Below, piece after piece: positions 2,922 to 36,759 of a stretch of DNA of 45,372 nt. The stretch spans positions 1 through 45,372 of the forward strand of contig JAKSDO010000199.1 of the NCBI GenBank assembly GCA_022360055.1, in the 5' to 3' direction. The notes under the pieces were generated by a model. The model was not told where the DNA came from. It did not search any database and saw only the letters and a list, made by a program, of their open reading frames with translations. A program made the position numbers and the translations under genes. Each line of letters starts with the position of its first letter. Positions within the stretch are counted from its first letter, which is position 1. The DNA comes from Cytophagales bacterium. GTDB taxonomy: Bacteria > Bacteroidota > Bacteroidia > Cytophagales > Cyclobacteriaceae.

Positions 2922-2957
2922 AAAAAAAGGCCACGCTCGTATCGGCGGGGCTTTTTT
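2922..2957. terminator. Probable bidirectional terminator
   Basis: A run of A, then arms GGCCACGC and GGCGGGGC separated by a short loop, then a run of T. The stem pairs with two mismatches. The A and T runs make it usable from either strand, between the convergent YfiR-family gene and the sigma-factor operon, whose last stop codon overlaps the T run. Confidence 0.65.
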
Positions 2958-3393
2958 AATGTTCCAGCTGTTTTAACTTACTTCTTATCAGTTTATCATC
3001 GAGAATTTGTATCAAAGAAAAAATTGCCATTCCAAAAAGGAAGTACGCCAGGTTTCCTTTAAAAACTTCCACTATATTCCAAAAAAATTCCCGCCCGATT
3101 GAAAAAATAGCTGTTAAACTGAGTGCAATCAATGGAATAGCCACAGCAATATGCAAAGATATTTTCCTAAAAATATCTTTTAGGTGCTTTCGTTTATGGG
3201 CAATTTCAATTGTTGTTTTCGCAAAGTCTTCGGAAATCGAAATGGCCGGTTCTTCCTCCAGATTTTTAAAAAGATTTTCGTATAGCTTTGCATCTTCATT
3301 GAGCAAAATCAATTCATTCTTTTCCAAAGATGACATCGGATCGCCAATTGCTTTTTGGATTTCCTCGTCGCTGTATTTATTGCGTTTTTTCAT
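2956..3393 (-). CDS. Two-span membrane protein, probable sigma-factor partner
   Basis: A protein of 145 residues. Residues 1-75 are hydrophilic and helical, rich in Glu and Lys. Two hydrophobic spans follow: LHIAVAIPLIALSLTAIFSI and AYFLFGMAIFSLIQIL, with a basic tail. It is the last gene after an ECF sigma factor on the same strand, 90 bases away, a position typical of anti-sigma or accessory membrane proteins in Bacteroidota. No zinc-finger (HxxxCxxC) or other named anti-sigma motif is seen, so the role is inferred from context only. The gap to the sigma gene holds the MKPVGPEQ element. Confidence 0.7.
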   Translation of the reverse strand: MKKRNKYSDEEIQKAIGDPMSSLEKNELILLNEDAKLYENLFKNLEEEPAISISEDFAKTTIEIAHKRKHLKDIFRKISLHIAVAIPLIALSLTAIFSIGREFFWNIVEVFKGNLAYFLFGMAIFSLIQILDDKLIRSKLKQLEH

Positions 3394-3398
3394 CTGTT

Positions 3399-3470
3399 TT
3401 ATTTTTCACACAGAGTAATATAATCGTGCCTGTATGTGTCCTGAATTTGCTCCGGTCCTACCGGTTTCAT
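3399..3470 (-). other. MKPVGPEQ element, copy 1 (small open frame in the operon gap)
   Basis: Reading the minus strand from 3470, an ATG opens a 23-codon frame beginning MKPVGPEQIQ and ending in TAA six bases before the ATG of the membrane gene. A second copy lies at 36084-36176. The first 63 bases of the two copies align without gaps with 51 identities (28 of the first 30), and both sit in the same orientation just before a gene start. The start contains CCGG-TAGGA-CCGG, able to form a short hairpin. Only 2 of 12 differences are silent, so a protein role is not proven; a structured leader RNA or a repeat is equally possible. Confidence 0.5.
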
Positions 3471-3483
3471 CCTGTTTTCACAT

Positions 3484-4053
3484 TTAAATCGAAATGAATA
3501 TTCTGTTTTTTTTCAAGATATCCTTCAATATTTTCCGGGCTCTGAAAAGATAATTCTTTACCGTTCCATCCGGCATGGCCGTAATATCAGCAATCTCTTT
3601 GTAGCTAAAACCATTTAAATGATAGAGCGTGACAATTGTCCGGTACTGAATGGGCAACTCATTGACCATGTTGTGAATATATTCCTTTTTCTCCTTGCAT
3701 TCTACTTTTTGATGAGGTGTGTTTTCATAAGATGCGTGATCAATTATGATCTCGTCTGTCAAATCTGAAAAACTTACCTTTTTTCTTTTCTTCAAATGAT
3801 TCAGCGTAAATCGATAGGCGATCGTTGCAATCCATGTTGAGAGCTTCGAATCAAAATTAAACTTTTCAAGTTTTAAATAAATCTGGATAAAAACCTCCTG
3901 ACAAATATCCTTGATCTCATCTTCCTCCACGACCATTCGCGACACTATAAACCAAACCATCCGCTCATACTTCTTTACAAGTATGGAAAAAGCCGATTTA
4001 TTTCCATCCAGTATTTTATTTACAAGTTCCCGGTCTTCGTACATGCTGACCAT
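3484..4053 (-). CDS. RNA polymerase ECF sigma factor (sigma-70 family)
   Basis: A protein of 189 residues. Sigma region 2 is seen as FSILVKKYERMVWFIVSRMV followed by DICQEVFIQIYLKLEKF (about residues 22-68), then LSTWIATIAYRFTLNHLKKRKK. Sigma region 4 is seen as LPIQYRTIVTLYHLNGFSYKEIADITAMPDGTVKNYLFRARKIL (about 133-178), containing the helix-turn-helix that reads the -35 element. It would direct RNA polymerase to a small regulon; the signal is unknown. The ATG at 4053 is used; an in-frame ATG at 4044 is possible. It heads an operon with a two-span membrane protein and is divergent from a DUF6249-like gene. An 11-bp dyad lies directly upstream. Confidence 0.9.
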   Translation of the reverse strand: MVSMYEDRELVNKILDGNKSAFSILVKKYERMVWFIVSRMVVEEDEIKDICQEVFIQIYLKLEKFNFDSKLSTWIATIAYRFTLNHLKKRKKVSFSDLTDEIIIDHASYENTPHQKVECKEKKEYIHNMVNELPIQYRTIVTLYHLNGFSYKEIADITAMPDGTVKNYLFRARKILKDILKKNRIFISI

Positions 4054-33668: not shown

Positions 33669-34889
33669 ATGATTGTACTGGTATTAAATGCGGGTAGTTC
33701 GTCCATAAAATATCAATTATTTGATGTGGAGGAAAAGAAAGTATTGGCAAAAGGAATCGTTGATAAAATCGGCATGGCTGACGCCGCGCTCATAAATTAT
33801 AGAGATGATGGAGATGAGGTAAAATTGGAAGGGGAAATCGTGGACCACCAGGCCGGGATTGAATATGTTTTAGGCGTTTTAATTAGTGAGAAACACGGTT
33901 CGATAAAATCTCTGGAAGGTATCGACGCCGTCGGCCATCGCGTTGTCCACGGTGGCGAATCCTTTCAATCGAGCGCATTAATAAACGACGAAATTGTCAG
34001 GAAAATCAATGAATGTGTTCCCCTGGCGCCCCTGCATAATCCACCTAATTTAAAAGGGATTGAAGCCGTAACCGAACTGATGCCCGACACACCGCAGGTG
34101 GCCGTATTTGATACCGCCTTTCATCAAACCATGCCGAAATCAGCCTATATGTATGCCATCCCGTATTCCCTCTATAAGAAATATGGGTTAAGACGATATG
34201 GTTTTCACGGGACAAGCCATCATTATGTATCCCGAAGAGCATGTGAAATTGTAGGTGTGGATTATCAAACGCAAAAGATCATTACTTGCCATTTGGGAAA
34301 CGGGGCATCCATTACTGCTATTAAATATGGAAAATCCGTAGATACTTCCATGGGACTTACTCCGGTTGAAGGTATGATTATGGGTACGCGTTCCGGTGAT
34401 CTTGACCTTGGTGTGCTTACCTATATCATCGATAAGGAAGAGCTGGGGGTGAAAGAAGCAAATACACTAATCAATAAGCACAGTGGTATACTCGGTATTT
34501 CCGGTGTTTCATCGGACATGCGGGAGGTCGAGCGCGCCTCGGACGATGGCAACAACCGGGCAAGACTGGCTTTGGAAATGTATGACTACCGAATAATTAA
34601 ATACATCGGTTCATATGCCGCAGCCATGAGCGGGGTGGATATGATCGTATTCACCGGAGGAATTGGAGAAAACGCACATCGCGTTCGCGAGGCCGTCTGC
34701 AAAAAATTCGGCTACATGGGCCTTGAATTTGATTCTGAAAAAAATACCGGATTGAGATCTCAGGAAGCTATAATAAGTAAGCCGGACTCGAAGATAAAGG
34801 TGCTTGTCGTGCCAACCAATGAGGAACTGGTCATCGCACAGGAAACTCTAAAAGTGATAAATAATATCAAAGATTTGTTGAAGGCTTAG
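33669..34889 (+). CDS. ackA: Acetate kinase
   Basis: A protein of 406 residues of the ASKHA kinase fold. It converts acetyl phosphate and ADP to acetate and ATP. VLVLNAGSSSIKYQLFD at the start, VGHRVVHGG, FDTAFHQTMP, YGLRRYGFHGTSHHYV, HLGNGASITAIK, MGLTPVEGMIMGTRSGDLD, ISGVSSDMRE and VFTGGIGENAHRVRE are all classical. The length is normal. It is the last gene of the pta cluster. Its 3' end overlaps the 3' end of the convergent dipeptidase gene by 23 bases. Confidence 0.96.
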   Translation: MIVLVLNAGSSSIKYQLFDVEEKKVLAKGIVDKIGMADAALINYRDDGDEVKLEGEIVDHQAGIEYVLGVLISEKHGSIKSLEGIDAVGHRVVHGGESFQSSALINDEIVRKINECVPLAPLHNPPNLKGIEAVTELMPDTPQVAVFDTAFHQTMPKSAYMYAIPYSLYKKYGLRRYGFHGTSHHYVSRRACEIVGVDYQTQKIITCHLGNGASITAIKYGKSVDTSMGLTPVEGMIMGTRSGDLDLGVLTYIIDKEELGVKEANTLINKHSGILGISGVSSDMREVERASDDGNNRARLALEMYDYRIIKYIGSYAAAMSGVDMIVFTGGIGENAHRVREAVCKKFGYMGLEFDSEKNTGLRSQEAIISKPDSKIKVLVVPTNEELVIAQETLKVINNIKDLLKA

Positions 34890-36087
34890 ATGCTGCTTCA
34901 ATTACTTCATTCCAAACTCTGAAGATATTTTTACTGCATATTTTTTTTATGTCTTCGTGGGAATATCCTCTTCGGAGCAATTCGAGAAACAGGTCCGGAA
35001 GTTTTGAAACATCTTCAAGACCGATTGGTAAGTTTGAAACACCATCAAAATCGGATCCCAAACCAACATATTCTATGCCGGCAATTTTTATGACGTGTTC
35101 AATATGATCGGCGACCAGGGAAACATCTCCCATAAGTTCCGGCTGGTTTTTTATTGAATCTAACTGCGCGGCTATGGAGGGATCATTTTCATTTGCTCCG
35201 GCTTCTATTTCTGCATAAACCTTTTTCAAAGCTTCGTTCCCTTTTGGAGTCAGGAAAAATGAGCCAAAATTGATCATGATCACCCCTCTTCGATCTGCAA
35301 GAAGCTTTATCATTTCATCCGAGACATTGCGCTCAAACCCCGGAGTAAAATGCCTGCACGAAGAATGCGAAGCAATTACCGGTGCACGGGAATGCCTCAC
35401 GGATTGATAAAAAGCGCTATCTGATACATGAGAAACATCGATCATGATTCCCAACTGATTCATCCTGTCAATGACCTGGTAGCCAAAAGGGCTTAATCCT
35501 CCATGCGTATATTTCCGATCATACGAAGAGTCACAAATGTGATTGTCTTTAGAATGGCATAACGTAATATACCGGATTCCTTTTCTATATAAAATATCCA
35601 GGTTTTCCAGTTTACCCTCGATGGGCGCTCCATTTTCCAGCCCCATAGGCAGGGAAATCAATCCCCTTGAAAAATTCAACTCAATTTCATCCGGAGATGT
35701 AGCCATGGCATATTTATCAGGATAATCCCGGCAGATTTTTTCGACCGAAGCAATCAGTTCAAGAGCAAGATCCAAGGCTCCGTCCATCTCTTTACTCGCC
35801 GGAATATAGATCGACATAATCGGTGCGTCCAATCCACCCGCTTTGGCCCGGACATAATCAAAATGCCCTCCTTCAGTACGCGTTGAGACATCCTCCCATT
35901 TATTTTTAAGCCGGTAAGGAAGATCAACATGACCATCAACTACGATGGTTTCCCGACTCAACCTCCTCGCTTCCTCTACCAGGTCTCTGGGTTTTGAATC
36001 CGCCTGCTCCGGGACAGAGCTTTTGTTTTTTTCATTACATGACAAAACAATGAGAATCAATGAAAGGAGAAGATATTTAATTTTCAT
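34867..36087 (-). CDS. Membrane dipeptidase (M19), lipoprotein
   Basis: A protein of 406 residues with a lipoprotein signal: MKIKYLLLSLILIVLSC, Cys17. The M19 (renal dipeptidase) domain shows the metal ligands in VVDGHVDLPYRL (His53, Asp55), IDVSHVSDSAF, VIASHSSCRHFTPGFERN, and GLGSDFDGV. These zinc enzymes cleave dipeptides, often D,L or L,D. The lipid anchor puts it at the periplasmic face of a membrane. I chose the ATG at 36087, where the signal peptide begins; an in-frame ATG at 36129 would add 14 residues and hide the signal. Its start overlaps the stop of the MKPVGPEQ frame. Confidence 0.92.
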   Translation of the reverse strand: MKIKYLLLSLILIVLSCNEKNKSSVPEQADSKPRDLVEEARRLSRETIVVDGHVDLPYRLKNKWEDVSTRTEGGHFDYVRAKAGGLDAPIMSIYIPASKEMDGALDLALELIASVEKICRDYPDKYAMATSPDEIELNFSRGLISLPMGLENGAPIEGKLENLDILYRKGIRYITLCHSKDNHICDSSYDRKYTHGGLSPFGYQVIDRMNQLGIMIDVSHVSDSAFYQSVRHSRAPVIASHSSCRHFTPGFERNVSDEMIKLLADRRGVIMINFGSFFLTPKGNEALKKVYAEIEAGANENDPSIAAQLDSIKNQPELMGDVSLVADHIEHVIKIAGIEYVGLGSDFDGVSNLPIGLEDVSKLPDLFLELLRRGYSHEDIKKICSKNIFRVWNEVIEAASKPSTNL

Positions 36088-36176
36088 CTGTTTATATTTT
36101 TTAAGTTGCTGATACACATAGAAATACAATCATGCTCATGTATGTTCTGAGTTTGCTCCGGCCCTACCGGTTTCAT
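36084..36176 (-). other. MKPVGPEQ element, copy 2 (small open frame coupled to the dipeptidase)
   Basis: Read on the minus strand from 36176, an ATG opens a 30-codon frame beginning MKPVGPEQTQ. Its TGA overlaps the dipeptidase ATG as ATGA, an arrangement that would couple their translation. The ATG lies 10 bases after the stop of the upstream membrane gene. Its first 63 bases match copy 1 at 3470-3408 at 51 positions. A CCGG-TAGGG-CCGG dyad lies in the conserved start. Whether it acts as a peptide, an RNA or a repeat cannot be settled from two copies. Confidence 0.5.
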
Positions 36177-36186
36177 TTTCGGTTAT

Positions 36187-36681
36187 TTATGGAATTTCCA
36201 ATCCGTTAAGTATAATTTGTTTGTCCGAATTTTTCAATTTTAAATCATTAACAATTTTTCTCGTATTGGGATTGTTTATGGAAAACAGTACGATCATGAT
36301 CCCGAATAAGGCGGCAAATGCCTGGAAATTGGTCAGATAAAATCCAATTGTAATAAGAATGGAGCTGAGCCCGTACGTAAAAAACCTGTAATTATTTGCT
36401 TTCCGATACAGAATTAGTTTTTCTTTTAATTCCTTTCCAAGCCTGGCCTTTTCGAGCATGGATCTGTGTTTTCGTATCCCTCTATAGATGATCATGAGAC
36501 ACAAAATTACTATTGGAATAAGTGTTACTGCATGGTATTCGGCCTGAATAATCTCTTCGAGCTCATCAACGGAAGATTCCAGATAAAGATAGATAAAAGG
36601 GATCAGCGGTGCTCCAAGATTTAAATAAGCAATTGTTTGAAGCCTCTGCACATAATTTTTCGTATCCAGTTGATTATGCAT
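36187..36681 (-). CDS. Membrane protein of unknown function
   Basis: A protein of 164 residues with two long hydrophobic regions. The first half has LNLGAPLIPFIYLYL and AVTLIPIVILCLMIIYRGI, then a basic helix (KHRSMLEKARLGKELKEKLILYRKANNYRF). The second half has FTYGLSSILITIGFYLTNFQAFAALFGIMIVLFSI, followed by a hydrophilic tail. No named family is recognised. I chose the ATG at 36681, because the longer frame to 36720 begins at a TTG. It is upstream of the MKPVGPEQ element and the dipeptidase on the same strand, so they may be co-transcribed. Confidence 0.7.
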   Translation of the reverse strand: MHNQLDTKNYVQRLQTIAYLNLGAPLIPFIYLYLESSVDELEEIIQAEYHAVTLIPIVILCLMIIYRGIRKHRSMLEKARLGKELKEKLILYRKANNYRFFTYGLSSILITIGFYLTNFQAFAALFGIMIVLFSINNPNTRKIVNDLKLKNSDKQIILNGLEIP

Positions 36682-36759
36682 GTATAAAGTAATAATTTGA
36701 GTTGTCGCTAAAATTGACAAATCCTAAATTAGGAACCTAATTTTTCCGGATTCAAACAT

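Follow-up and report, generated by a model that had tools for sequence, protein, structure and literature searches.

Mobile DNA that settles on start codons without gene breakage is, to our knowledge, represented by a single known case, the mycobacterial MIRUs, and we know of no explanation for their movement. MIRUs are present in 40-50 copies, and tandem copies occur. According to PMC12548453, which credits the description to Supply et al. (1997), MIRUs are short dispersed repeats that are apparently mobile and insert at start codons, and whose short open reading frame can couple to the gene through a stop-start overlap.

The repeat described here (family A) is likewise short, dispersed and inserted at start codons. 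Its short frame ends in an ATGA overlap with the following gene in 11 of 89 copies, reads through into the gene in 26 and stops earlier in 36. It differs from MIRU in its occurrence in Bacteroidota, its preference for ATGAAA, a covarying hairpin and the existence of at least two families, and its copy number is several times the 40-50 of MIRU. By described behaviour, MIRU appears to be the closest known kind, and we regard the element as a probable variant of that kind. The listed titles and abstracts contained no description of such an element in Bacteroidota. Mobile DNA that lands where proteins begin and supplies its own start signal is rare. This second case, which offers hundreds of copies in two families, known empty sites, and both carriers and non-carriers among the congeners, is one whose target, ends and enzyme could be elucidated.

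Two further systems bear on the comparison, minimal derivatives of the IS200/IS605 family (PMC6006769) and REP elements with RAYT transposases (PMC3733652). The IS200/IS605 derivatives resemble family A in the absence of terminal inverted repeats, in a subterminal hairpin, and in an orientation fixed to a short target. In contrast to them, no transposase-bearing family-A copy was found, and the target and ends are unmatched to any known member. REP/RAYT systems share with family A a high-copy, small, palindrome-bearing repeat and a plausible mobilisation in trans by a Y1 transposase. Family A differs in lying at start codons in the sense direction, in its larger unit, in a hairpin internal to an element of about 90 nt, and in showing no linkage to Y1 genes (29 loci).

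A REP is defined as a palindrome of 20-40 bp, one end of which bears a conserved tetranucleotide tag. Classification of family A as a REP was rejected, given a unit of about 90 nt and a GTAG that lies within the stem and is not retained in relatives. Classification as a classical DDE MITE was rejected as well: the ends are not inverted repeats (ATGAAACCGG... and ...TAAACRGATG), and at most ATG or ATGAAA is repeated, with no target duplication beyond.

Two copies in the window

The window, i.e. the whole stretch of 45,372 nucleotides that was analysed, contains two copies of family A at the following positions.

2956..3393, minus strand: gene downstream of copy 1, 145 aa
3391..3393, minus strand: 3' ATG of copy 1, the start codon of the 145-aa gene (ATGAAAAAA)
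3394..3470, minus strand: family-A element copy 1, a shortened 77-nt unit running from ATG to CAG
3399..3470, minus strand: short frame of copy 1, 23 codons and TAA, with no peptide selection visible in the family
3452..3464, minus strand: hairpin 1 of copy 1 (CCGGT-AGG-ACCGG)
3484..4053, minus strand: gene upstream of copy 1, a sigma factor with Sigma70_r2 and Sigma70_r4_2
34867..36087, minus strand: gene downstream of copy 2, a membrane dipeptidase M19 of 406 aa when read from the 3' ATG of the element
36084..36176, minus strand: short frame of copy 2, 30 codons, whose TGA overlaps the ATG of the gene (ATGA)
36088..36176, minus strand: family-A element copy 2, an 89-nt unit
36111..36146, minus strand: hairpin 2 region of copy 2, a long imperfect stem that is clear only in the own-genome consensus
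36158..36170, minus strand: hairpin 1 of copy 2 (CCGGT-AGG-GCCGG)
36187..36720, minus strand: gene upstream of copy 2

As an earlier note on this DNA had reported, the two sites match on the minus strand with 51 identities over 63 ungapped bases, and each lies between two same-strand genes. Both begin with ATGAAACCGGTAGG(A/G)CCGGAGCAAA..., and the short frames encode the peptides MKPVGPEQIQDTYRHDYITLCEK and MKPVGPEQTQNIHEHDCISMCISNLKNINR, each followed by a stop. The spacing needed correction: the stop of copy 1 lies five bases (AACAG), not six, before the ATG of what the note called the membrane gene. Both sites are confirmed as genuine copies of the dispersed family A of about 90 bp.

A covariance model trained on 49 own copies and run on the window scored copy 1 (3383-3470), which lies outside the training set, at 70.2 bits, and copy 2 (36085-36176) at 93.3 bits, the latter score arising partly by construction because copy 2 belongs to the training alignment (A2). 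The third-best match in the window reached 14.4 bits.

The copy 1 unit measures 77 nt against the usual 90, and the stop of the sigma-factor gene lies 13 nt upstream of it. From its Sigma70_r2 and Sigma70_r4_2 make-up we take this sigma factor to be of the ECF type. The 145-aa gene matched no Pfam family at E<=0.001, and neither did the gene upstream of copy 2, whose stop lies 10 nt upstream of the element. The N-terminus of the M19 dipeptidase looks lipoprotein-like by eye. The listed start of its open reading frame (a TTG at 36129) falls within copy 2, and the true start is very likely the 3' ATG of copy 2 at 36087. The element can mislead gene callers in this manner.

Copy number and anatomy

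A search of the own genome (7,547,564 bases, or 7.55 Mb, in 300 contigs) with a 20-nt core found 248 places at <=3 mismatches, compared to 4 for the backwards control, a result far from the single accidental duplication that the earlier note had considered. The covariance model gave 60 matches at E<=0.1 in 1,160,317 bp of own sequence, 56 of them strong and 4 weak (2 of the weak ones belonging to family B). This sequence consisted of 60 contiguous stretches from contigs already known to hold copies, and its density of copies may run high.

Family A has the consensus ATG-AAACCGGTAGGACCGGAGCAAATTCAGGACACACACGAGCATGATTATATTGCTCTGTGTGTCAGCAAACTAAAAAAATATAAACRG-ATG, a unit of about 90 bp that runs from ATG to ATG, and its 3' end is an A-rich start region, AAAAAATATAAACRG-ATG. 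This end was recognisable in 89 of 98 distinct copies, the other 9 lacking the expected 3' end by the rule used. Among the 89, unit lengths were 90 (57 copies), 89 (17), 91 (6), 88 (4) and 87 (3), with outliers of 77 (window copy 1) and 97 (one copy). Both boundaries are evident from comparison between copies: upstream, flanks are dissimilar up to the ATG, where likeness starts, and downstream it dies away past ATGAAA or the run of A.

The 13 matches in which no 3' end was recognised were read individually, and none was an autonomous copy with an internal gene; about 8 seem to be real copies that are altered or truncated, and 5 seem to be chance matches. The element had no match in viruses, plasmids or phages, viral contigs having been searched with one exact pattern.

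A second family, B, has the form ATGAAACAGGCCATGCCTGAGATAATT...AAACAGATG. Twelve copies were found in the 1,160,317 bp of own sequence, 10 of which adjoin an A or B copy, and 19 of 61 family-A copies stand in A/B tandems. The two families behave alike and pile up in tandem, and this clustering points to a common target, and perhaps common machinery, for the two. At one locus (L015, G000 C196:21-290), three copies stand in tandem, with a single base of difference between the second and the third; this triplet is probably a local, VNTR-like tandem expansion.

Empty sites in congeners

Two junctions could be compared between the own genome and congeners, at genes that we take, from their protein sequences, to be mce, pccB, tgt and lptG. 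Between mce and pccB, the own genome carries a 90-bp copy that extends from 20 nt after the mce stop to the pccB ATGAAAAATC. All 5 recovered congeners (G002, G003, G004, G005 and G006) are empty here, with a single ATGAAAAATCA; the count excludes G001, for which the locus was fetched and the junction not recovered by the pattern. The gap aligns nearly throughout in G002, G003, G005 and G006, but not in G004. Between tgt and lptG, the own genome carries a copy of 88 bp in which decay has turned the 5' ATG into ACG. This site is also empty in all 5 recovered congeners (G001, G002, G003, G004 and G006; G005 gave no match), the stop and the ATGAAAAT start lying 1 to 7 bases apart.

The two junctions therefore show an element added at the start codon without apparent loss of host DNA. 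That it moves we infer from the similarity of the copies and from these two orthologous junctions. For copy 1 of the window, the best match of the upstream sigma factor in six congeners is 33% identical, too distant for such a comparison. The mobility suspected in the earlier note gains support from the hundreds of copies, the two empty-site comparisons, the tandems, and diverged copies in four congeners.

Distribution in relatives

In a set of 59 close genomes, the first model, with stricter filters, found copies in 6 including the own genome: 26 in G001, 12 in G005, 7 in G003, 4 in G004 and 1 in G015, which belongs to another genus. A second model, with at most 17 candidates scored per genome, was applied to 245 genomes of the family and found copies in 9 (own, G001, G003, G004, G005, G015, G159, G204 and G239), with single copies in each of the last four. 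With laxer filters, the congener G002 was free of matches and G006 had a single one, at E 0.365. Significant model matches were confined to the window's own family in the sets of 59 and 245 genomes. A pattern search of 395 genomes of the phylum returned the own genome and one 3-mismatch match, apparently due to chance. The exact pattern occurred in three named records, all uncultured MAGs, of which two are called Cyclobacteriaceae and the third Bacteroidia.

We read 44 copies from relatives individually, 43 from congeners and 1 from G015. From the 3' end of the element, 35 of the 44 open a reading frame of >=50 codons, several of these frames being clipped at the end of the fetched sequence.

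Placement at start codons

Family A is very probably a miniature mobile element of about 90 bp, apparently non-autonomous, which enters genes at the ATG(AAA) of their start codons and mostly in sense. The common relative position pointed out in the earlier note was borne out and narrowed to start-codon insertion in most copies. A rival reading, which we take seriously although we lean against it, is that the element inserts at any ATGAAA and is then purged from genes, start codons being the commonest harmless A-rich ATGAAA.

This rival shares with the preferred reading the support of the target itself, which is ATGAAA-like: ATGAAA follows 60 of 71 non-tandem copies, compared to 162 of 841 called gene starts of the genome, some of these 162 possibly being the elements' own. 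The position of the copies was scored at 52 sites in the fetched stretches and the window, with tandems merged, one edge case falling beyond the 52, and 13 of 66 regular-expression matches excluded for want of a recognised 3' end. Gene calls were plain ORF calls, not an annotation, and an ORF start required an ORF of >=60 codons, or >=20 where the sequence end cuts it. By this scoring, 39 sites are at an ORF start. The other sites are again in line with insertion at any ATGAAA, 8 lying at leader ATGs on the same strand within 400 nt and 5 elsewhere (4 with the next gene on the other strand, 1 at >400 nt). Near-consensus copies are also not more often off start codons than more diverged ones, as purging rather than late loss would predict; the share at ORF starts is 29 of 44 and 33 of 45, respectively, and the site mix is similar. 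With such a similar mix in close and diverged copies, dating by divergence was given up.

The background of non-coding ATGAAA speaks against the rival. Outside elements, the same sequence holds 333 such sites (11 edge cases excluded), 131 at starts, 106 in leaders, 87 with the next gene on the other strand and 9 distant. Non-start sites thus outnumber starts by 202 to 131, whereas among the copies 39 of 52 occupy starts (Fisher p 1.8e-6). Another 356 in-frame ATGAAA inside called genes were kept out of the start class, which may lack a few true starts for this reason; with the background start class set by hand at 165, p was 4.9e-5. A longer A-rich motif could absorb this gap, and a simple preference for ATGAAA, together with purging from genes, could account for part of the start-codon bias. 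In a cruder test, 33 of 59 copies open an ORF of >=50 codons from their 3' end, compared to 24% of 5000 random ATGs (tandems were not followed, and one of 60 matches, clipped at the stretch end, was excluded).

Tolerance and mobilisation

Insertion at a start codon would cost the host little because the element itself delivers a translation start, whether in frame, via the ATGA stop-start overlap, or by re-initiation; copies landing within genes would be lost. The gene would stay translatable because an A-rich initiation region followed by an ATG forms the 3' end of the element, and re-initiation at the 3' ATG, a stop-start overlap or an N-terminal extension may each preserve translation. Many genes may have acquired N-terminal extensions or new start regions from the element. 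Such effects would account for tolerance, but tolerance by itself would not account for aiming at starts. For the aiming, we propose with less assurance that a strand-transfer enzyme acting in trans reads the folded 5' hairpin 1, and that ATG(AAA) may be its cleavage or crossover site. Its orientation and its lack of terminal inverted repeats, together with a short target and a hairpin close to the end, fit a single-strand HUH enzyme (Y1-type) or a site-specific recombinase better than a DDE transposase. In the fullest form of this proposal, which we put not far short of even, one hitherto undescribed mobilising system serves both families and crosses over or cleaves at ATGAAA in an A-rich initiation context, with start codons as its class of attachment site.

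A search for Y1 transposases in 7 genomes of the genus identified no mobilising enzyme. It bears on the unlikely alternative that the copies are REP-like repeats moved by REP-associated Y1 transposases (RAYTs). The short hairpin, the high copy number and the Y1 matches in 7 of 7 genomes (4 in G000) are all compatible with this alternative. However, Y1 transposases are few and their presence does not track the element, matches being present also in both congeners without significant copies (G002 and G006), and a unit of about 90 nt with ATG ends is not a 20-40-bp palindrome. The 29 Y1 loci contained no significant element copy; the best model match, at 23.5 bits (L186, again in the overlapping L198), is transposase coding sequence.

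Hairpins and a possible regulatory role

The dyad singled out in the earlier note can indeed fold, as a small CCGG hairpin (hairpin 1) with covariation. Hairpin 1 is the least variable part of the element, with 0.038 differences per site compared to 0.083 elsewhere and 0.103 in hairpin 2. When covariation was compared across families and species, both sides had changed in 4 of 5 pairs (1.8 in shuffles; 4 of 500 shuffles reach 4), and the covariation score was 0.274 compared to 0.133 +/- 0.017 in shuffles, none of 500 reaching it; the number of further pair types, 6, was not above shuffles (472 of 500 reach it). We read these values as support rather than as probabilities because the related family-B rows supply 7 of the 8 A-U cells of one pair.

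The fold of the whole typed consensus has a z of -4.6, and the own-genome consensus shows hairpin 2 clearly. In own copies, 86% of hairpin 2 cells are paired, and one pair is unpaired in 27 of 49. Taken jointly, hairpins 1 and 2 show modest covariation (0.069 compared to 0.058; 3 of 500), and the number of pairs with both sides changed was reached by 86 of 500 shuffles. Hairpin 2 has no obvious retention in relatives, as judged by eye, and has decayed in copy 1. We do not rely on it because of the modest covariation and the lack of obvious retention.

Sense orientation and start position, the hairpin covariation, and the stable folds of the consensus and of a family-B sequence (z -3.9) would also suit a cis-regulatory RNA or leader (attenuator, riboswitch or uORF control) selected at many genes and spread by recombination. 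We nevertheless judge this improbable. Rfam gave no match at E<=5 for three loci, and copy 1 alone folds no better than chance (z -1.10; 30 of 200 shuffles as good). The N-termini of 79 own downstream proteins look varied by eye. When 20 genes downstream of the element in relatives were set against those of the own genome, one proved a likely ortholog (73% identity), one matched at 49% and two only at 24-30%. In the 73% pair, each gene bears an element of its own species' type. Decayed copies, a peptide that evolves neutrally, and the two congeners without significant copies (none in G002, the single match at E 0.365 in G006) also argue against selection at many genes.

The short peptide

The earlier note had also proposed a selected leader peptide. 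In 82 copies, the substitutions in the frame were 120 synonymous, 311 non-synonymous and 24 to stop, compared to 131, 303 and 21 expected under the same mutation spectrum. The element peptide evolves neutrally, with no detectable selection. Besides the fates of the frame already given for the 89 copies, 6 stop 5-30 nt later and 10 have lost the 5' ATG, so the frame is stopped inside or its ATG is lost in 46 of 89. Selection on a translated small protein family or on an N-terminal extension is very improbable given these neutral counts and the in-frame stops common in own copies and in those of relatives, even though 26 of 89 copies run in frame into the gene and the MKP..PEQ start recurs in relatives. 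Of the initial interpretation, mobility, position and fold are supported, and the selected peptide is not.

Further observations

In G000 C90 (L065), the stop of a sigma-factor relative upstream overlaps the 5' ATG of the element (gap -4), so the element seems to occupy what was once a stop-start overlap ahead of a 129-aa gene. The single diverged copy of G159 (L267), in another genus, ends at an ATGAAA that opens a frame; by eye, the next gene is presumably PIN-toxin-like and the preceding short gene antitoxin-like.

Several copies of relatives (L098, L102, L111, L112 and L266) contain a GC-rich palindrome of the GCCTGCC...GGCAGGC type, inserted either in the loop of hairpin 1 or within the region of hairpin 2, so that one repeat is nested in another.

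G001 also holds 590 matches at <=2 mismatches to AAAGCCTCTAAAATCCATG (281 forward, 309 reverse; control 0), compared to 16 in G003, 10 in G002, 4 in G005 and none in the own genome, G004 or G006. Several of the G001 matches form inverted pairs with a common CATG, and some half copies stop exactly at the ATG that opens an element. The loci are L243, L245, L248 (directly upstream of an element), L255, L259 and L263.
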